A stretch of 64,000 nt of DNA, from positions 1 through 64,000 of the forward strand of contig JAIXLB010000020.1 of assembly GCA_026931905.1 (NCBI GenBank), read 5' to 3'. Of the stretch, positions 25,894-41,665 are shown in pieces. Origin of the DNA: Chitinophagales bacterium (GTDB taxonomy: Bacteria; Bacteroidota; Bacteroidia; Chitinophagales; Chitinophagaceae). Position 1 is the first letter of the stretch. Each line of letters starts with the position of its first letter. The notes under the pieces are model-generated. The model was not told the DNA's origin, searched no databases, and was given only the letters and a program-made list of their open reading frames with translations. Made by a program: the position numbers and the translations under genes.

Positions 25894-25913
25894 GTGTAAA
25901 ATTATTTTTACAC
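25894..25913. promoter_or_regulatory. Perfect inverted repeat at the narK stop codon
   Basis: GTGTAAAA and TTTTACAC (8-base arms, 4-base spacer) overlap the narK stop codon and lie 74 bases before the TDT gene. No T run follows in the minus direction, so it is not a standard terminator. It might be an operator for an internal promoter or an mRNA processing hairpin. Confidence 0.4.
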
Positions 25914-27404
25914 TTGTGCTACATTATTTTTTTTAGTTACAGCTTTTATTGCTGTGCGTTGCAATACAATACAAACAGCTACCAATGCAGCAAGAAACAT
26001 CCAACAAGAGCTCCAAATACCTGTTTGTTTAAGTAGATAAGCAAAAATTATTGGTCCAAAAAATCCTCCTAAACCACCTAACACTCCTACAATTCCTCCA
26101 ACTGTTCCAATGCTTGTAGGATAATAATCTGAAATGTGTTTAAATACAGCAGCACCGCCAAGCCCCATCATCATTCCTATAATAAAAACAAGCCCTGAAA
26201 AAATCCATTTGTTTGCCTGAAAATAAATTAAGGAAACGCCTTTTGCTATTAATTCTCCTTTTAAAACTTTATCTCCTGTTTTTACATTTGGCACCTGATG
26301 AAATGTAGTGGTGGGTAATAATAAAAATCCCTCTTCGTTGTGATGAATACCAAAACGAATAGCAACATCTGAAGAGTCGCCAACTTTGTTTTGAAGCGTA
26401 TAAGTATCTTCATCAATAACAATTTCTTTTTCTGATACAGCTTTTACAATACCTGCTTTTGAAGCCATAATACCTTGCCCTGGTGCTTGAATTTCCATTC
26501 GAGGAATAAATAAAAATACCATACACACTAAGCATATTCCTAAGGTCCATAATAATACCATTCTTGCTCCAACTTTATCAGACAACCAGCCTCCTGCAGC
26601 TCTAAAAATACCAGCAGGTAAACTAAATGCAGCAGCCATAAACCCTGCAGATACAATAGTTAAAGCATATACATTAACATAGTAAGGAATTAACCATTGT
26701 GATAGTGCAACAAAACTTCCAAATACAAAAAAATAGTAAATGCCAAAACGCCAAACCCTTACTTGTTTTAAAGGCAACAATCTTTCTTTCATTGTTTTAG
26801 ATTCGGCAGGTATTTTGTTTTTTGTGGAGAGAAAAAAAACAACTGCTGTTAGTAAAAGTATAGCTGCATAAAGTTTAGGAAGTGTTCGCCAGGCTTCAAT
26901 GTTTTCGCTATTGTGTGTTAGTGTTTTTAAAATGGTAGGGGCAAAAAAAGTGGTAAGTGCTGCACCTGTATTTCCTACGCCAAAAATACCCAATGCTGTA
27001 CCTTGTTTTTCTTTAGGAAACCATAAACTTGTATAAGCCACACCTGCTGCAAAGCAAGTTCCTGCAATTCCAAAACCAAAGCTGAGCATTAAAAAAGCAG
27101 TATAATTATTGGCTGCTGATAAAAAATACATAGGCAAAGCAGTTAATAACAAAATAATTGTTATCATCCATCTGCCTCCAAACTTATCTGTTAATATGCC
27201 TATTGGTAAACGAAAAATAGAACCCACTAAAACAGGAACTCCTAACAACCATCCTATTTTTATAGGACTCCAATTAAATACACCTCTATCTACAAGATAG
27301 GTTACTAACACACCATTTATCATCCATGCAGCAAAACAAACCATGAATGCAAACGTGTTTAGAAAGAGTATTCTGTATGCTAATTTATTACTTTGCTGAT
27401 TCAT
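25908..27404 (-). CDS. narK: NarK-family nitrate/nitrite MFS transporter with an extra soluble domain
   Basis: 498 residues, 12 predicted membrane segments. The nitrate-porter signatures are present: GFGIAGTCFAAGVAY, LGIFGVGNTGAAL in the N-half, and MGLGGAAVFKHISDYYP, VGGIVGVLGGLGGF in the C-half. The cytoplasmic A-loop DKFGGRW is present as well. It would exchange nitrate and nitrite or bring nitrate in with protons. Unusually, residues about 302-396, between the ninth and tenth segments, form a beta-rich insert (AGIVKAV, EIVIDEDTYTL, VKTGDKVLKGELIAKG) that looks like a hammerhead/barrel-sandwich domain. Topology puts it on the periplasmic side. It lies 15 bases after the small membrane gene, in the nar operon. 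Confidence 0.9.
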   Translation of the reverse strand: MNQQSNKLAYRILFLNTFAFMVCFAAWMINGVLVTYLVDRGVFNWSPIKIGWLLGVPVLVGSIFRLPIGILTDKFGGRWMITIILLLTALPMYFLSAANNYTAFLMLSFGFGIAGTCFAAGVAYTSLWFPKEKQGTALGIFGVGNTGAALTTFFAPTILKTLTHNSENIEAWRTLPKLYAAILLLTAVVFFLSTKNKIPAESKTMKERLLPLKQVRVWRFGIYYFFVFGSFVALSQWLIPYYVNVYALTIVSAGFMAAAFSLPAGIFRAAGGWLSDKVGARMVLLWTLGICLVCMVFLFIPRMEIQAPGQGIMASKAGIVKAVSEKEIVIDEDTYTLQNKVGDSSDVAIRFGIHHNEEGFLLLPTTTFHQVPNVKTGDKVLKGELIAKGVSLIYFQANKWIFSGLVFIIGMMMGLGGAAVFKHISDYYPTSIGTVGGIVGVLGGLGGFFGPIIFAYLLKQTGIWSSCWMFLAALVAVCIVLQRTAIKAVTKKNNVAQV

Positions 27405-27871: not shown

Positions 27872-28600
27872 CTAAGTATTTTTAGGACGATGTACCGACC
27901 ATGGAGATTTGCTGCTACGAACTTTATCTTTATCCCAATTCCACATTACTTGTTGATAAGGTCGCCATATATAATTTAATGGAAGAACCAGCATGTGTAT
28001 TAACCTTGAAAAAGGAAGAATACCAATAATGAGATAAGCCCCCATAATATGTAATTTTACTGTCCAGGGCAATAATGCAACTGCAGTAATATCTGGTTGA
28101 AATTTAAAAATGGAATACAAATAAGGCGTTAGTAAAGTAGAAAACCAAGAAGAACCCCATCTAAAATTATAGGCAATCCATAAGCCTGCAAAGGTTTGTA
28201 GAATTAATAAAATGTAAATGGCAAAATCCATTTTATTGGTAACATATTTTAAACGTGGGGTTGTATATCTTCTTATAAAAAGATTAATTAAGCCCACCAA
28301 CATACTAATGCCAAAAATGAATGCAGTAATTTCTAAAACCATTAATCTTACTGGTTGACTGTTCCAGGCAAGTACGCCTTTTGGAATGGTAAATGCAATT
28401 AAATGTCCTAAGAAAATAAATACAATTCCCCAGTGAAAAGGTACAGAACCCATGAATAACTTTTTTCCTTCCAGAAACTGAGATGATAACGAGGAAACCT
28501 GAAATTTTCTGCTTGTGTAGCGATAGATAGAGCCTATTAAAAATGTAGCTAATGCAACATAAGGTAACACAATTAAAATAAAATTATCTAAGTAGTTCAT
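27872..28600 (-). CDS. narI: Respiratory nitrate reductase gamma subunit (cytochrome b)
   Basis: 242 residues with five membrane segments. NarI anchors NarGH and passes quinol electrons through two haems b. All four haem-ligand histidines are visible with the spacing known from E. coli NarI: the pair in FHWGIVFIFLGH (10 apart) and the pair in KLHIMGAYLIIGILP followed by SRLIH (18 apart). The C-terminal cytoplasmic tail is short and basic. The gene follows narJ by 36 bases, giving the order G-H-J-I. Identification is very secure. Confidence 0.95.
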   Translation of the reverse strand: MNYLDNFILIVLPYVALATFLIGSIYRYTSRKFQVSSLSSQFLEGKKLFMGSVPFHWGIVFIFLGHLIAFTIPKGVLAWNSQPVRLMVLEITAFIFGISMLVGLINLFIRRYTTPRLKYVTNKMDFAIYILLILQTFAGLWIAYNFRWGSSWFSTLLTPYLYSIFKFQPDITAVALLPWTVKLHIMGAYLIIGILPFSRLIHMLVLPLNYIWRPYQQVMWNWDKDKVRSSKSPWSVHRPKNT

Positions 28601-28636: not shown

Positions 28637-29374
28637 TTATTTTTCTGTAAGCATTTCCGATTCTATGCTTTCACAGAAATCTTTTATTGTTTCTTCTTTG
28701 TTTAAAAAAGAATTGTTGTTGCTGCGTTTTGTTGTGGTGGGTTCGTAATTAAAATCTTTTTGCATAACAAGAAATAAAGCCCAAACACAACTTTGATAAA
28801 TTGTTCTGTAGTTTTGAGAATACTCCAACAAAACTTTTTGATGTTTTTTGTAAACAGAATCTTTCTTTTCAATTTTTTCAATAGAAAATTCGTCTATCAT
28901 TTTTTCTAATGCAGGCAGTAGTAAAAACTGTGCAATTTCTGTTTGCATAGCAACATCTTCTATTTTGGGTAATAAGTTTAAAAGATTGGGTAAATGATCG
29001 GCTAATTCTGTTTCACAGATATTGCCTGCTTTTTTGTGTTCTTCGTTTAAATGAACCAAGAGTTTTCCTCTTTTATAATCTTCACCAAATAAAATAAACC
29101 CAATATCTAATGTTGTTAATGCTTGTAAATCGAATGATCTTAAAAACAATTCCTGAATTTCTACAATAGAAGACTCTTTTACAAATGCTACAAAAGGCTC
29201 TAACATTGGAGCAAAGGGTGTATAATTTTTTTGCAAATAATCATACACATTTTTTACTTCTTGTTTATACATTTCGCTTTTAGGATACACAAAAAGATTT
29301 GCCAATAATTCATAGTTTGCCAATGTATTTTTGGTTAATGTTTCTTCTGTTATTGTATTTTGTTCTATTTCCAT
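28637..29374 (-). CDS. narJ: Nitrate reductase assembly chaperone NarJ
   Basis: 245 residues, all helical, no membrane segment. NarJ (TorD-like family) binds the NarG N-terminus and allows cofactor insertion before membrane attachment. Sequence hallmarks are weak, as usual for this family: YELLANLFVYPKSEMY near residue 23, then LQELFLRSFD-like text and LTTLDIGFILFGEDYKRG, which matches the family core with its conserved Leu-x-YGED-like loop. The C-terminal third is charged and ends in KDFCESIESEML. It lies between narH and narI, the standard position. Confidence 0.9.
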   Translation of the reverse strand: MEIEQNTITEETLTKNTLANYELLANLFVYPKSEMYKQEVKNVYDYLQKNYTPFAPMLEPFVAFVKESSIVEIQELFLRSFDLQALTTLDIGFILFGEDYKRGKLLVHLNEEHKKAGNICETELADHLPNLLNLLPKIEDVAMQTEIAQFLLLPALEKMIDEFSIEKIEKKDSVYKKHQKVLLEYSQNYRTIYQSCVWALFLVMQKDFNYEPTTTKRSNNNSFLNKEETIKDFCESIESEMLTEK

Positions 29375-29416: not shown

Positions 29417-30970
29417 TTAAATTCCTCTTACTACTGGTTTTTTTATTCCAAAACCTGTACCTCCTTTTGTATCTCCTGTAAAATCCATCATTTCAATAGC
29501 TTGCTCTCTGTGAGCAGCAGGAATTACAAAGCGTTCTTCAAATTTTGGTAAAGAGGTTAAAGCATAAATGGCATCTGCTTCTTCGGCAGTCATGTTTGCA
29601 TCTCGTAAGGTTTCTGTAACTTTTTCATCGCTTATATCGCCTACTGTAACTTTTCTACGATGAATACGAACTGCCATTAATTTTTTCCATTTTTCTTTTA
29701 TCAATTCTTCATCACCGGCACTAAATAAATTGGCAATATATTTTAATGGAAAACGAATTTGGTCTAAAGTGCCCCAAAGTTCTTTGGTGCTTGTATCGTA
29801 CAACCAATTGTCTTCCCATTTTTTTGCAATAGGGTGCATTTTATCTTGTTGTTCTGCATTATCTGTTTTCTTTACTGTTGCCATAACAGGTAATAATGGT
29901 GGTACATAAAACAACATGGGTAAAGTACGAAATTCAGGATGTAGCGGTAAAGCCAATTTCCATTCTTTTACAAATCTGTAAATGGGCGAATTTTGTGCTG
30001 CATGAATGGTTGAATCTGCAACGCCATTTTTCTTTGCTTCTCTAATTACATTTTCATCAAAAGGGTTTAGGATAATATCTAACTGTTTTTGAATTAAATC
30101 TTTTTCGTCTGCTTTGGCTGTTTCTTCAATTTTTGAAGCATCGTATAATAAAACGCCCAAGTATCTTATTCTTCCTACACAAGAGTGCATACATGCAGGA
30201 GCTAAACCTGCTTCCATACGAGGATAACATAAAATACATTTTTCTGATTTTCCTGTATGCCAGTTGTAATAAGATTTTTTATAAGGGCAAGCCGTAACAC
30301 ACATTCTCCAAGCTCTGCACACTTCTTGATTGATTAATACTACTCCATCTTCGCCACGTTTGTAAATTGCTCCAGATGGGCAAGATGCAACACAGGCAGG
30401 GTTTAAGCAATGATTACAAATTCTTGGAAGATAGAAGAAAGCCATTTTTTCTAACTGAAACATTACTTCTTTTTCTTCGGGAGAAATATTTTTAAAATTT
30501 GGATCGTTGCGTGCATAATCAGGTGTGCCACTTAAATCATCATCCCAATTGGGTCCCATTTTTATATCAATAGGTTTTCCTGTTATTAATGAAACAGGTC
30601 GTGCAGTTGGTTGATCATCTTTTTCTGGCGATTCTATTAAATCTAAATATTTGTAAGTAAATGGTTCGTAATAATCATCTATTACAGGTAAGTTGGGGTT
30701 GTAAAAAATATTTGTTAAGCCACGTCTTTTTCCTGCACCTTTTAGGTTTATATTTCCATCTTTATTTTTTTCCCAACCGCCTTTGTAAATGCCTTGATCT
30801 TCCCATTTTGATGGATAACCTGTGCCAGGTTTTGTTTCAACATTATTCCACCACATATATTCAGCACCTTTACGGTCTGTCCAAATATTTTTACATGCAA
30901 TAGAGCAGGTATGACAACCTATACACTTATCTAAGTGAAAAACCATTGCAATTTGTGAACGAATATCCAT
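29417..30970 (-). CDS. narH: Respiratory nitrate reductase beta subunit (iron-sulfur)
   Basis: 517 residues. NarH carries electrons from NarI haem to NarG through one 3Fe-4S and three 4Fe-4S clusters. The cysteine groups are clear: CIGCHTCSIACKN at the N-terminus, CNHCLNPACVASCP, CRAWRMCVTACPYKKSY, and KCILCYPRMEAGLAPAC with a further Cys (HSCVG). The Trp in CRAW replaces a cysteine, which is the normal mark of the 3Fe-4S site in NarH. Length matches E. coli NarH (512). It is spaced 34 bases from narG and 42 from narJ. Identification is very secure. Confidence 0.96.
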   Translation of the reverse strand: MDIRSQIAMVFHLDKCIGCHTCSIACKNIWTDRKGAEYMWWNNVETKPGTGYPSKWEDQGIYKGGWEKNKDGNINLKGAGKRRGLTNIFYNPNLPVIDDYYEPFTYKYLDLIESPEKDDQPTARPVSLITGKPIDIKMGPNWDDDLSGTPDYARNDPNFKNISPEEKEVMFQLEKMAFFYLPRICNHCLNPACVASCPSGAIYKRGEDGVVLINQEVCRAWRMCVTACPYKKSYYNWHTGKSEKCILCYPRMEAGLAPACMHSCVGRIRYLGVLLYDASKIEETAKADEKDLIQKQLDIILNPFDENVIREAKKNGVADSTIHAAQNSPIYRFVKEWKLALPLHPEFRTLPMLFYVPPLLPVMATVKKTDNAEQQDKMHPIAKKWEDNWLYDTSTKELWGTLDQIRFPLKYIANLFSAGDEELIKEKWKKLMAVRIHRRKVTVGDISDEKVTETLRDANMTAEEADAIYALTSLPKFEERFVIPAAHREQAIEMMDFTGDTKGGTGFGIKKPVVRGI

Positions 30971-31004: not shown

Positions 31005-34000
31005 TTACCAAACTAATTTTTCCATTTTCTTTACAATAACATGTGTATCTCTTTGAGGAGCTACAGGACCCCAATAATTAAAATGATAAGAGAATTGTCC
31101 GTAGCCTCCATTCAAATAATTGGGTTTTAAGTGAATACGTGTTACACTGTTATGCCCTCCACCTCTACGATTGTCTCTTAATTGAGATTTAGGAATACCA
31201 ACAGTTCTTTCTGGAACGTGATAAACAATACACACACCTGGTGGTATTCTTGAACTTACACAAGCTCTTGTAACATACACACCATGATCGTTATGAACTT
31301 CTACCCAATCATTATCTTTTATGCCTAATTCTTCTGCATCTTTTTCGCTTAACCAGCAAGGCTCCATACCTCTTGAAAGTGTAAGCATTCTTAAATTTTC
31401 CATGTAGGTAGAGTGTATATGCCATTTGCCGTGTGGTGTTAAATAATTTAAAGCTTTTGCTTTTCCTTTTTTCCATGTTTCTCTTAAATCGCCATACACT
31501 TCTGGGCTTGGAGCTGGTTTAAAAGTTGGCAAATGCTCACCATAAGCTATATACATTTCTTGGTCTAAATAAAAATGTTGTCTGCCTGTTAAGGTTCTCC
31601 AAGGCACTAATCTTTCTACATTGTAGGTGTAAGCAGAATAAGCTCTTCCATTATTCATTAAACCAGACCAAACAGGTGAAGTGTTGTAACGATGAGGTTT
31701 TGCTAACAAATCTGCATAACGAATTTTTACGCCCAAAGTATCATCAGATAAATCAACAAGACTTAATCCTGTTTTCTTTTCCATGTACTCGTAGGCTTTT
31801 TTGGTAAGTTTTCCATTGGTTAAAGAAGAAAGATGAAGCACTGCATTGGCAGCCCATTCGTCTTCTTGTATTGAGGGTAATAATTTGTCTTTGAATTTTC
31901 TTTGATGAAAATGTTGTGAGCTACACATTTCATCAAATTCTTCTTTACACATATAATGGTTGCCGTGGGCACTTAATCCTTTATCTCTAATTCCTTCTCC
32001 TAATGTGATGAATTTTTCGTACAAGTCTGTATAATCTCTTTCTACAACACTAAGCTTGTGCATGGTTATTCCTGGAATTGCTTCGCACTCTCCTGCATAC
32101 CAATCTTTAATTGTTGGTTGAGTTATTTCATCAACACTATCGTGTGATAATGGCGTAGCAACAACATCTTTTTGTACTTCTGAAAAATATTTTTTAGCCA
32201 TTTCGCTGGTTGCCTTAGCAAGATGTTTAAAAATATCCCAATCAGTTTTTGATTCCCAAACTGGAGCAATAGCTTGCCCAAGAGGATGTATAAAAGAGTG
32301 TAAGTCGGTACTGTTTAAATCTGCTTTTTCGTACCAAGATGCTGCAGGTAAAACAATATCAGAATACAATGCAGAAGAATCCATTCTAAAATTCAAATCA
32401 ACCACTAAATCCATTTTACCTACAGGTGCTACATCGTGCCATTGAACTTCTTTTGGTTTTTCATCTACATCTTTTGCAATAACATTGCTATGTGTGCCTA
32501 AATAATGTTTTAAAGCATACTCATGTCCTTTCATGCTTCCTACAATAGCATTGCCACGCCATATATACCATAATCTTGGATAGTTTATTTCGTCTTCAGG
32601 CTGTTCTACAGAATATTTTAATTCTTTTGATTTTAATTTTTCGAGAACATAGGCTTTTATTTCGTCATCATTTTTTGCACCATTAGCAACCGCTTGTTTA
32701 GAAAGCTCTAAAGGATTTTCGTTGAACTGAGGATAGAAAGGCATCCAACCATTTCTTACAGAAGTAAAAATGGTATCTGCAACGTGTTTATCTGTCCATT
32801 TGTTTTGGTCTGTTGTGTTGTAATCGGAATGATGACCATCATAACGGTATTGACAAGTATTAATGTAATGCCAAAGAGGGGCTTGTTGTAATCTTGAAAC
32901 AGGTACCCAATCTTTTGCAAAAGAAATAGAACCCCAAGAATCTACAGGAGCTAATTTTTCTTGACCAACATAATGGTTTAATCCTCCTCCATTTTTTCCT
33001 ACACAGCCACACATCATTAAAGCCATAGCTCCTGCTCTGTAGGTAAGGTTTTGATGATACCAGTGATTAACGCCTGCACCTACTAATATCATACATTTTC
33101 CTTCTGTAGTGTTTGCAGTATCTGCCCATTCTCTTGCAAATTGTAATAATGTTTTAGAATCTATTCCTGTAAAAATTTCTTGCCAAGCTGGTGTATATGC
33201 AGCATCTGGGTCATCATAACTTACAGGATAATTTCCTCCTAAGCCTCTATCTACGCCATATTGAGCCATCATTAAATCATACACAGTAGTAACAGCTTTT
33301 TTTACATTATTGGTTTCTATCCATTTTACTGGTACACCTCTTTCTACTTTTTTTGATAACCCAAATTCTGTAAATTCAATATTTAATACCTCGTCTTTTG
33401 AGTTTAATAAACTTAATACTGGGTCGTAATTTTTATCAGTTTCGCCACACTCATATTTCATATTCCATTTGCCCCCATTTTTATCCCAACGATAACCCAT
33501 TGTTCCTTTTGGCACTACAAAGTCTTTTGTTTTTTCATCAATAGATAAAAATTTCCAATCGCCATTTTCAATATCTTTCCATTTTGAAAGTTCATTGGCT
33601 CTTACCATTCTACCTGGTGTAAATCCTTTTTCTGTTTTATCCAAATGCACCAGCATTGGGCTGTCTGTATATCTTTTTACATAATCTATAAAATAAGGAG
33701 TTTGTTTATCGTAATGATATTCTTTTAAAATAACGTGAGTAACAGCCATCCAAAATGCACCATCACTACCAGCATGAAGAGGCACCCATTGGTCTGCATA
33801 TTTACATAACTGACTAAAGTCTGGAGAAAAAACAACAGTCTTTGTTCCGTTGTGTCTTGATTCTGCAAAGAAGTGGCAGTCTGGTGTTCTTGTCATGTTT
33901 AAGTTGGTACCCATATCTGCAATCATTTTTGCATTGTACCAATCTGCACTTTCGCAAACATCAGTTTGTTCGCCCCATATTTCAGGAAATGCAGGGGGTA

Positions 34001-34622
34001 AATCGCAATACCAATCGTAAAAACTAAGGTTTACGCCACCAAATAATTGTAAAAATCTTGCACCAGATGCATAGCTTAACATAGACATTGCAGGTATGGG
34101 CGAAAAACCTATAACTCTGTCGGGTCCATATTTTTTAGCTGTATGAATATTGGCTGCTGCCATTAATTCAAGTACTTCGTCCCAAGATGCTCTTCTAAAA
34201 CCTCCTTTACCTCTTGAGTTTTGGTATCTTTTTCTTTTTTCTTGATTTTTTTGAAGATTTTCCCAAGCCAATACTGGGTTACCATTTGCTTTTTCTTTTT
34301 CTTCTCTATAAGCATCTAATAAAGTGCCTCTTATTAATGGATATTTAATTCTTAAAGGGCTATATAAATACCAAGAATAAGAAATTCCTCTTTGACAACC
34401 ACGGGGTTCATAGGGTGGAAGTTTTTCATCTATCAAAGGATAATCTAATTGCTGGGTTTCAAAAACAACTATTCCTTCTTTTACATGAATTTGCCAGGAG
34501 CAACCTCCTGTACAATTTACACCATGCGTACTTCTTACAATACGATCATGCTGAAATCTATTTCTGTAAAACTCTTCCCATTTGCGAGTTTCAGGCGATA
34601 TAATGTCTTTAATCCAGCTCAT
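31005..34622 (-). CDS. narG: Respiratory nitrate reductase alpha subunit (Mo-bis-MGD)
   Basis: 1205 residues, slightly shorter than E. coli NarG (1247). It reduces nitrate to nitrite in the cytoplasm. The FS0 cluster ligands are H33, C37, C41 ([11 protein letters not shown]) and C76 (RGCQRG), in the same register as E. coli H49/C53/C57/C92. The molybdenum ligand aspartate is D207 in [10 protein letters not shown], equivalent to D222. There is no twin-arginine signal, so the enzyme is the inward-facing NarGHI type rather than the outward-facing archaeal type. It follows the cytochrome gene by 45 bases. Identification is very secure. Confidence 0.97.
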
Positions 34623-34667: not shown

Positions 34668-35555
34668 TTAATAAGATTGAATTTGTCTGTCAAATACTGA
34701 ATCATTTACAGGTTGTTTTTTTCTTTTAATCCAGAAAAAAGAATATAACCCTAATAAAATAATGATACCTCCAATTCCTCCTCCTAATAAATAATTGCTA
34801 ATGCTTGATGTTCTTACATCTGGGTCTTGCTCATTTACGGTTGCTAAGAATGCTGTTAAATCTGCAATTTCCTGTGGGGTTACAGGATGAGAGTTATATG
34901 TTTCTTTCATTTGAGGAAAAGGCAAGCCAGAAATTATTCCAGCAACACCATCTTCTGAAAGCCTTGTTACAGCGTGGGTTAAATCTTTAGCTAAAGCACC
35001 ACCACTTATAAATCCTTTTACATCTACATTATGACAAGAATTACAACTTGCTCCATTATTAGTAAAACGAATTTTGCCCACAAATAATAACTTTCCTCTA
35101 TCGCTATTACCTACAAGGGGTTCTGTTGTTGTAGCTGTTGCAGTAGTTGCAGAGCTATTGCTGTGTTCTGTTATATAGGCATAAATGCCTTTTATGGTTT
35201 CATCTGAAAGATTGGCATGATCTGGCATTGGTATTTGATTATATGCTTTAAATAAAGAGTCAGCATATTTATCGCCATTTTTTATAACTGTTTGGGAAGA
35301 TTTTACAAATTTTATAAACCAATCCACAGGTTTGCGTTCTTGAATATTGGCTAAATCGGGTCCTATTAATTTTCCTTTTCCTATTGTATGACAAGCAATA
35401 CAAGTTTCTTTAAATGCAGCTTCGCCACTTTGTGCAAATAAAGAAGTTGAAAACAAAAAACTGTTTAATAAAACAGTAAGAAATACTGAGACAAAAAATT
35501 TATTTATTTTCAAAAAGCTATGAATACAGTTAGTTGGAGTTACTCTAATTTTCAT
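34668..35555 (-). CDS. Membrane-anchored dihaem cytochrome c (NarC-like)
   Basis: 295 residues. An N-terminal signal/anchor ends near FAQ at 42. Two class I cytochrome c domains follow: haem 1 at C52-C55-H56 (CIACH) with likely Met ligand M110 (IPMPDH), and haem 2 at C171-C174-H175 (CNSCH) with likely M216 (FPQMKE). A Ser/Ala/Thr-rich linker joins them. A C-terminal helix at about 255-275 (GGIIILLGLYSFFWI) and a basic tail anchor it in the inner membrane. It is the first gene of the nar operon. In Thermus the nar operon also begins with a dihaem cytochrome (NarC) required for the enzyme; the parallel is by order and architecture. It may feed or receive electrons at NarI. Confidence 0.82.
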   Translation of the reverse strand: MKIRVTPTNCIHSFLKINKFFVSVFLTVLLNSFLFSTSLFAQSGEAAFKETCIACHTIGKGKLIGPDLANIQERKPVDWFIKFVKSSQTVIKNGDKYADSLFKAYNQIPMPDHANLSDETIKGIYAYITEHSNSSATTATATTTEPLVGNSDRGKLLFVGKIRFTNNGASCNSCHNVDVKGFISGGALAKDLTHAVTRLSEDGVAGIISGLPFPQMKETYNSHPVTPQEIADLTAFLATVNEQDPDVRTSSISNYLLGGGIGGIIILLGLYSFFWIKRKKQPVNDSVFDRQIQSY

Positions 35556-35595
35556 AGTTATTAAAGTTTAATTTTTATTATTGCAATGGGTGCAA

Positions 35596-35601
35596 ATTAT
35601 A
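35596..35601 (-). promoter_or_regulatory. Candidate -10 element of the nar operon promoter
   Basis: On the minus strand TATAAT, followed by TTG, lies 41 bases before the cytochrome c start codon. If it is the -10 element, transcription would start near 35589 and the upstream palindrome would be centred at -61.5. It is not an exact match to the Bacteroidota TAnnTTTG form. Confidence 0.4.
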
Positions 35602-35638
35602 CTTGGAATACTGAATAGAAAATGACACAATTAACACC

Positions 35639-35662
35639 AAAGTGTGATTTTTAACACACTTT
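35639..35662. promoter_or_regulatory. Crp/Fnr-type operator upstream of the nar operon
   Basis: Perfect inverted repeat AAAGTGTG-N8-CACACTTT. Read as TGTGA-N6-ACACA it has the size and spacing of a CRP site (TGTGA-N6-TCACA). It lies between the regulator gene and the first nar gene. Its centre is 61 bases upstream of the transcription start inferred from the TATAAT. The neighbouring regulator has a CRP-like R-E-x3-R recognition helix, so it is the obvious candidate binder. Confidence 0.65.
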
Positions 35663-35719
35663 TGAATTGAAAAAAGTTGTATAAGAAATGGGAAGAAAAA
35701 TTAGAATGGAAATTGTTTT

Positions 35720-36433
35720 TTACAAACTTGCATTAGCAATACGTTGTAATTTTTGAGCATCTAAAATTTTAATTTTTTTACCCGTTAGCTCTATGATATT
35801 AGACTCATTAAATTCATATAGAGTACGAATGGCAGACTCCCTTATTGTACCTGCAATTCCTGCAAGTTCATCTCTTTTTAAACTTACATTTATGGTTATG
35901 CCATCATCTTCTGTACCATAAAATTCTGCCAGTAAAAGAATAGATTCTGCAATCCTTTCTCTTACTGTATTTTGGGTTAGGTGTAAAATTTTTGTTTCAG
36001 ATGTTTTTAAATCATTGGCAAGCACTTTCATAAACTGAAAAGGAAGATCGGAATTGGATTTAAACAACTGTTGAATTAAATCGTGTTTTAAAAAACACAA
36101 ACAAACTTCACTTATAGCTATTGCAGTACAATTATATGACTCTTCTCCTATAAAAGATCTATAGCCTACTACATCGCCTTCTTTTGCAAATCGTATAATT
36201 TGTTCTCTTTTTTCGAAACCAAATTTTGAGTATTTTAATTTGCCTTTTGTAATAATATAAAAACCAGGTGGGTATTGACCTTCTTTAAAAAGCGTTTCGC
36301 CACAATCAAGAGTTACATGGGTTTTTTGTTTTTGTAATATAGCTATTTCCTCACTATTTAAAACGCTAAAAAGAGAATGTATTCTGGTAGAACAATGTAG
36401 GCAATCTTGACAAGATGATTGAAGTTCAAACAT
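35720..36433 (-). CDS. Crp/Fnr-family transcription regulator with FNR-like cysteines
   Basis: 237 residues. The N-terminus has C8, C11 and C14 (CQDCLHC), and C111 (SEVCLC) aligns with FNR C122; together these could hold an oxygen- or NO-sensitive Fe-S cluster. Residues about 20-130 are the cyclic-nucleotide-type beta barrel (GETLFKEGQYPPGFYIITKG). A long dimer helix follows, then a winged helix with recognition helix GTIRESAIRTLYEF; R-E-x3-R is the CRP pattern rather than FNR E-x2-S-R. It is transcribed towards the nar operon with the operator between, and follows the SUOX-like gene by 63 bases. Most likely the anaerobic/nitrate regulator of this cluster. Confidence 0.85.
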   Translation of the reverse strand: MFELQSSCQDCLHCSTRIHSLFSVLNSEEIAILQKQKTHVTLDCGETLFKEGQYPPGFYIITKGKLKYSKFGFEKREQIIRFAKEGDVVGYRSFIGEESYNCTAIAISEVCLCFLKHDLIQQLFKSNSDLPFQFMKVLANDLKTSETKILHLTQNTVRERIAESILLLAEFYGTEDDGITINVSLKRDELAGIAGTIRESAIRTLYEFNESNIIELTGKKIKILDAQKLQRIANASL

Positions 36434-36496: not shown

Positions 36497-37111
36497 TTAA
36501 TCTACTCGTTTTACATCAATGCTATTAAGCCAATACACATGACGTGGACCAGTTTTTATATCATTTTTACAAATAAGTATCATCTCTCCTTGTTCTTTTA
36601 TAGGCTCACCATTTTCTTCAAATAATACATACACATTATCTCCTGTAGGGTTATTAAAAATTTCTGCCCAAGAAAATGTTGCTTTATAATTATCTGTTGC
36701 TTTTGCTACTATATAAAAATTTCTGTCTTTATGGTTGCTTTGTTTTATAACTGCTTTTTCCAAAATATCTCTAAGCAAAACGCCTTTGCAAGTTTTATTT
36801 ACTTTAGTATTTGCACCACTTTGGCATACAACATTAAAGTTTTCGAGCGTAGCAACTTTCATTTGCTTGAGGGTATCAACATTAAAAACAAGTTCATGTT
36901 CTACATTACCTTTTACTGCTACTTGTTTACTAATATATTTTAAGCTGTCTTCGTGGGAAACAAGCACTACACAAGCATCGCTATTGGTAGATTTATTTAA
37001 TGAGGAACTTGTAGTATCTGATTTTGATGTGTTGCTATTTGGGTTGTTTTTGCAATTACTGAAAACAGCAACAAACATTATTAAAAGAGTTGGAGTGAAT
37101 AGTTTTTTCAT
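36497..37111 (-). CDS. Lipoprotein with sulfite-oxidase-type (SUOX-fold) pterin-binding-like domain
   Basis: 204 residues. The lipoprotein signal ends at C20 (FVAVFSNC), followed by a Ser/Thr/Asn linker to about residue 46. The rest resembles the Oxidored_molyb (SUOX) fold: CKGVLLRDILEKAV, YKATFSWAEIF, GDNVYVLFEENGEPI and GPRHVYWLNSIDVKRV. In active sulfite-oxidase-family enzymes a cysteine binds molybdenum; here C106 and C117 are nearby but the exact match is uncertain, and the domain is much shorter than an enzyme. It may bind a pterin or only keep the fold. It is first in the run of same-strand genes leading to the regulator and nar operon. Confidence 0.65.
   Translation of the reverse strand: MKKLFTPTLLIMFVAVFSNCKNNPNSNTSKSDTTSSSLNKSTNSDACVVLVSHEDSLKYISKQVAVKGNVEHELVFNVDTLKQMKVATLENFNVVCQSGANTKVNKTCKGVLLRDILEKAVIKQSNHKDRNFYIVAKATDNYKATFSWAEIFNNPTGDNVYVLFEENGEPIKEQGEMILICKNDIKTGPRHVYWLNSIDVKRVD

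Positions 37112-38885: not shown

Positions 38886-41665
<2,780 letters not shown>

Follow-up and report, generated by a model that had tools for sequence, protein, structure and literature searches.

A perfect palindrome separates a Crp/Fnr-family regulator gene from a nitrate reductase (nar) operon in the window, the 64,000-nucleotide stretch of Chitinophagales DNA analysed here, raising the question of whether the regulator controls the operon through this site. Judging from sequence comparison, the palindrome is very probably an ordinary activator site for the adjacent regulator. The full reading, in which it serves as this regulator's operator for class I-like activation of cytochrome c-narGHJI, is given a probability of about 0.82. 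It would tie a Bacteroidota nitrate-respiration operon to a local regulator, with a concrete predicted operator and start site.

The genes concerned follow one another on the minus strand. A gene for a molybdopterin-binding-domain protein (36497-37111) is followed by the regulator (35720-36433), the palindrome, a diheme cytochrome c gene (34668-35555, PF00034), narG (31005-34622, TIGR01580 with 1456 bits), narH (29417-30970, TIGR01660), a narJ-like chaperone gene (28637-29374, below the TIGR00684 cut-off and placed by its position between narH and narI), and narI (27872-28600, TIGR00351). A small ORF, a narK-like nitrate/nitrite transporter (25908-27404, below the TIGR00886 cut-off), a SLAC1-type transporter, and a hemerythrin-domain protein come after narI. 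The preliminary description had placed a perfect repeat between the regulator gene and the nar unit, and this holds; the site does precede the nar operon, but the gene directly 3' of it, described there as the first nar gene, is the diheme cytochrome c gene, with narG second. A relative of this gene precedes narG in nearly all of 80 related named loci. The window NarG is 92-86% identical to its nearest named relatives (Bacteroidetes, Bacteroidia, Chitinophagaceae).

The palindrome, AAAGTGTGATTTTTAACACACTTT (35639-35662), has the form AAAGTGTG-N8-CACACTTT with 8/8 arm pairs matching, and lies within the 164-bp regulator-cytochrome c intergenic region (35556-35719). The genome (2.38 Mb in 104 contigs) contains this one exact copy; the second-best match has two mismatches and falls inside a coding frame. 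The E. coli CRP site is TGTGA-N6-TCACA, and class I CRP promoters are centred at -61.5. The palindrome agrees with this CRP consensus at 9/10 positions, its second half being TGTGT. That right half-site, GTGTGT and not GTGTGA, counts against the preferred reading.

The closest ortholog of the regulator found is at G697 (63% identity, helix GTIRETATR), which besides the window is the sole locus found to have the order regulator-cytochrome c-narG-narH. A search for closer orthologs, covering a phylum sample and the families of G697 and of a nor/nirK locus, G749, yielded none beyond those used here. Between the two intergenic regions the operator core, TGTGATTTTTAACACA (35643-35658), is identical at 15/16 bases, reading TGTATTAAAAATCACA in G697 and TGTGTTAAAAATCACA on the window minus strand. 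This is their top 16-mer match and was unmatched in 150 shuffles. At the G697 locus (L209, 4719-5918) the diheme cytochrome c that precedes narG occupies two separate frames.

The regulator itself, of 237 aa, belongs to the Crp/Fnr superfamily, with PF00027 (68.9 bits) and PF13545 (51.8 bits) both above cut-off; the NCBIfam CRP model reaches 56 of 266 bits, far under its cut-off. Its recognition helix, GTIRESAIR, is of the CRP type (R-E-x3-R) with the equivalents of R180, E181, and R185 all present. The [4Fe-4S] cluster cysteines of FNR in E. coli are C20, C23, C29, and C122. Like FNR, the window regulator has three cysteines (Cys11, Cys14, Cys113) that align with cluster ligands, and these are nearly invariant in its family. 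Unlike FNR, it lacks the third N-terminal Cys and carries an extra Cys8, found in its nar/nor/nir subgroup and in few others. A role as an Fe-S oxygen sensor is plausible from this pattern. Relatives of the regulator adjoin Cu nitrite reductase (nirK) and norC-norB-like genes, including a combined norC-norB-like/nirK locus, and the window's own genome encodes a Sec-type (TIGR04246-like) nosZ, cut by a contig end (C48, L219), and a norC-norB-like pair (C69, L229), so a role in the respiration of nitrogen oxides appears reasonable. Elsewhere in the window, two tandem 461-aa paralogs on the plus strand (38886-41665) are by eye similar to tryptophanase/tyrosine phenol-lyase.

Bacteroidota promoters differ from the textbook type in using a -7 box of the form TAnnTTTG, and this affects how the distance from the operator to the promoter is read. 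A sigma-70-like scan of the intergenic region scored no promoter, and the minus-strand TATAAT at 35601-35596 is not strong by itself. With this hexamer as the -10 element, the palindrome centre (35650.5) lies 61.5 bp from a start at 35589. The sigma-A box of Flavobacterium psychrophilum is TAnnTTTG at -12 to -5; a variant also in use there, TAnnTTGY, with one base fewer between TA and TTG, has been assigned to a probable alternative sigma factor (PMC9723704). Offsets are counted here with the first base past the operator centre as 1. The putative window box, TATAATTTGC (35592-35601, minus strand), can be read as TATAAT at offset 50 or as TAATTTGC (35599-35592) at offset 52. The latter agrees with TAnnTTGY at all positions and with TAnnTTTG at 4/6, a poor match that is not exceeded in any register and that counts against the preferred reading. 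With the T of the box at -12, offset 52 corresponds to an operator centre of -63.5 and offset 30 to -41.5.

These two offsets recur among relatives. In 26 operators lying 3' of a regulator gene (loci L005-L206), a TAnnTTTG-like box (≥5/6 matches) starts exactly at offset 52 in 12 and at offset 30 in 10, the mean being 0.5 boxes per offset with none of the others above 3; the test was devised after the first examples had been seen, and several of the loci are close relatives of each other. The same two peaks had appeared in an earlier, less restrictive count. The ortholog locus G697 has a perfect TAGGTTTG box beginning 52 bases past the operator centre, and G749 has CAACTTTG at the same offset. 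Because both share offset 52 with the window, -63.5 is preferred over -61.5, with a predicted start at about 35587. On either reading the putative box places the operator near -61.5 and in phase, as in class I, relative to a predicted start. The earlier estimate of -61.5 and 35589 was arithmetically correct, but falls 2 bp off once the box is taken as TAnnTTTG-like.

Position does not by itself prove the sign of regulation, and the same regulator might bind the palindrome to repress the operon or to regulate its own gene. This is unlikely, as the site follows the regulator gene and stands clear of the promoter box, some 50 bp upstream of it, and the sites of relatives keep to two exact distances, -63.5 and -41.5, both of them positions from which CRP/FNR-family proteins activate.

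It is very unlikely that the palindrome, 58 bp past the stop codon of the regulator gene, serves as an intrinsic terminator for that gene. Its location 3' of the gene fits, and a pattern scan picks it up as a terminator-like element of the minus strand. However, an intrinsic terminator combines a GC-rich stem with a U-tract, and this stem has three GC pairs only and is followed by the tail GGTGTTAATT, without a U-tract. The fold z-score is an unremarkable -1.2. G697, moreover, keeps one half-site and the spacer unchanged but not the other half, so that the stem is lost and the hairpin is not the conserved feature. Retention of the 15/16 core despite this loss argues against both a terminator, which was rejected, and a chance repeat.

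The match between operator and recognition helix bears on which protein would use the site. Across 59 loci of related regulators, 34 are flanked by TGA-N6-TCA palindromes where shuffles predict 1.6, and none of the other 64 possible cores is as common as TGA. Specificity was compared in the 35 loci with a site. Regulators with R at the position of CRP Arg180 have G ahead of TGA in 8/9 loci, AAGTGTGAGTAAAATCACACTT in G1032 being one such site; those with T there have TATGA- or CATGA-like sites, with G in 1/26. The Fisher p of 3e-6 overstates the support for this association, because the R-type regulators form one clade in the tree and so represent a single R/T switch, which also leaves an independent-pairs test on the tree powerless. 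Rodionov et al. (2005) reported a correlation of R180 and E181 with two motif bases across the superfamily (PMC1274295). The rule pairing R180 with G is already known, and by this comparison the window regulator and its palindrome conform to it together. A second R-type subgroup (L184/L213 at 1888, L195, L197, L204) has a TGTGA-type operator with a box at offset 30, and its operators directly precede a gene resembling, by eye, homogentisate 1,2-dioxygenase.

The genome encodes at least two further HTH_Crp_2 proteins, on C81 and C90, and either might be imagined to use the palindrome. This is highly improbable in view of their helices, GTARVVVSR (V at the Glu position) and LRVETVIR (V at the Arg180 position), which differ from the R-E-x3-R of the adjacent protein.

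In shuffles of the intergenic region, the best-centre score of the palindrome was equalled in 1.5% and its 9/10 match to TGTGA-N6-TCACA in 0.5%. A chance inverted repeat without function is extremely unlikely: some 8-bp repeat with a spacer of ≤12 arises in 13% of these shuffles, and symmetry by itself is therefore weak evidence, but the consensus match combined with perfect arms arose in 0/3000, and the core is conserved in the ortholog.

Under the preferred reading, a dimer of the adjacent regulator would use its R-E-x3-R helices to bind the two GTGTG(A/T) half-sites. Bound at about -63.5 (-61.5 if TATAAT is the -10 element), it would help RNA polymerase on a weak promoter of the Bacteroidota -7 type, switching on cytochrome c-narGHJI and perhaps the remaining cluster genes as well. 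The signal is proposed to be low oxygen or nitrogen oxides. The identity of the operator, its specificity match, and its spacing come from sequence comparison; we infer dimer binding, the polymerase contact, and activation over repression, the last from the operator position. The preliminary description had proposed an operator of the adjacent regulator in a class I position, and the core in the ortholog, the agreement of base and helix, and the fixed distance in relatives all favour that proposal.

Several characterised systems share parts of this arrangement. The window resembles E. coli CRP in having one TGTGA half-site, the N6 spacer, the R-E-x3-R helix, and a palindrome some six turns ahead of the predicted start, and differs in its TGTGT half and the FNR-like cysteines of its regulator. 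Its box is of the Bacteroidota -7 type and relatives prefer -63.5, unlike E. coli class I promoters. As with FNR and DNR, which control nitrate respiration and denitrification (PMC1274295), a Crp/Fnr regulator is paired with a palindrome before nar, nir or nor genes, with activation predicted here; however, the window operator has G, as for CRP, where FNR has T. HcpR of Desulfovibrio recognises wTGTGAnnnnnnTCACAw and other HcpR proteins a TTGAC-type site (PMC1274295). There too one operator base switches with the residue at CRP position 180, but the subfamily and targets differ, and the alternative to G in the window's family is A, with a T-E-x3-R helix. Within the phylum, BT4338 (MalR/Cur) of Bacteroides thetaiotaomicron is a Crp-family activator whose 22-bp palindrome lies 5' of a -7 element (PMC6989115). 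The window shares the Crp-family regulator and the palindrome 5' of a putative -7-type box, whereas the BT4338 operator is TATGTTnTAnAACATA and its regulon responds to carbon limitation (PMC6989115).

A search of the whole genome for the motif, along the lines suggested at the outset, gave no enrichment and no second exact copy. GTGTGA-N7-CACAC with ≤2 mismatches had 57 forward matches vs. 85 in the reversed control, and TGTGA-N6-TCACA with one mismatch had 9 vs. 47; most matches were coding. As the motif is not enriched genome-wide, the regulator looks local and not the head of a global regulon. One further candidate target, at C70:30723, has TATGATTCTACTCACA with GAACTTTG at offset 30. It precedes a small lipoprotein gene, a look-alike of which adjoins the regulator in G749. 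Exact palindromes found elsewhere in the family include hairpins with extended stems and were excluded as evidence. Two other family genomes carry exact AAAGTGTGAT-N4-ATCACACTTT palindromes with similar flanks (L143 and L163, 1501-1524).

Nar loci whose NarG is 86-88% identical to that of the window have other palindromes before the same cytochrome gene. In L052 and L096, TACG-N4-CGTA lies beside a regulator with the helix KEQVSK, with boxes 58 and 48 past the centre, respectively; in L074 a TATGA-type palindrome upstream of the cytochrome gene has a box at 51. Judging by these few loci, similar nar operons seem to have come under one Crp/Fnr regulator or another, each acting from a similar position. 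We would give even odds to a broader proposition for Bacteroidota, that this Crp/Fnr subfamily acts only from -41.5 and -63.5 and that different regulators and operators replaced one another near -63.5 before closely related nar operons. No earlier reports of two fixed operator-box distances were found in the open-access literature. If the proposition is true, the class I position in Bacteroidota would lie 22 bp (two turns) past class II and 2 bp beyond the E. coli standard. The two exact distances, with the natural R/T switch, give a simple guide by which anaerobic regulons in the phylum could be predicted.

The KEQVSK regulator (about 30% identity) recurs in L052, L096, L114, and L126, where cytochrome c-narG of closely related nar operons is preceded, at a similar distance, by a TACG-N4-CGTA-like palindrome. 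In L049, L062, and L101 a second symmetrical element, absent from the window, lies 5' of the cytochrome c gene (AAAAGATAAAATTATCTTTT in L062, AAAGGATAAATTTATCTTTA in L101). It overlaps a TAnnTTTG-like box and is possibly a repressor site.
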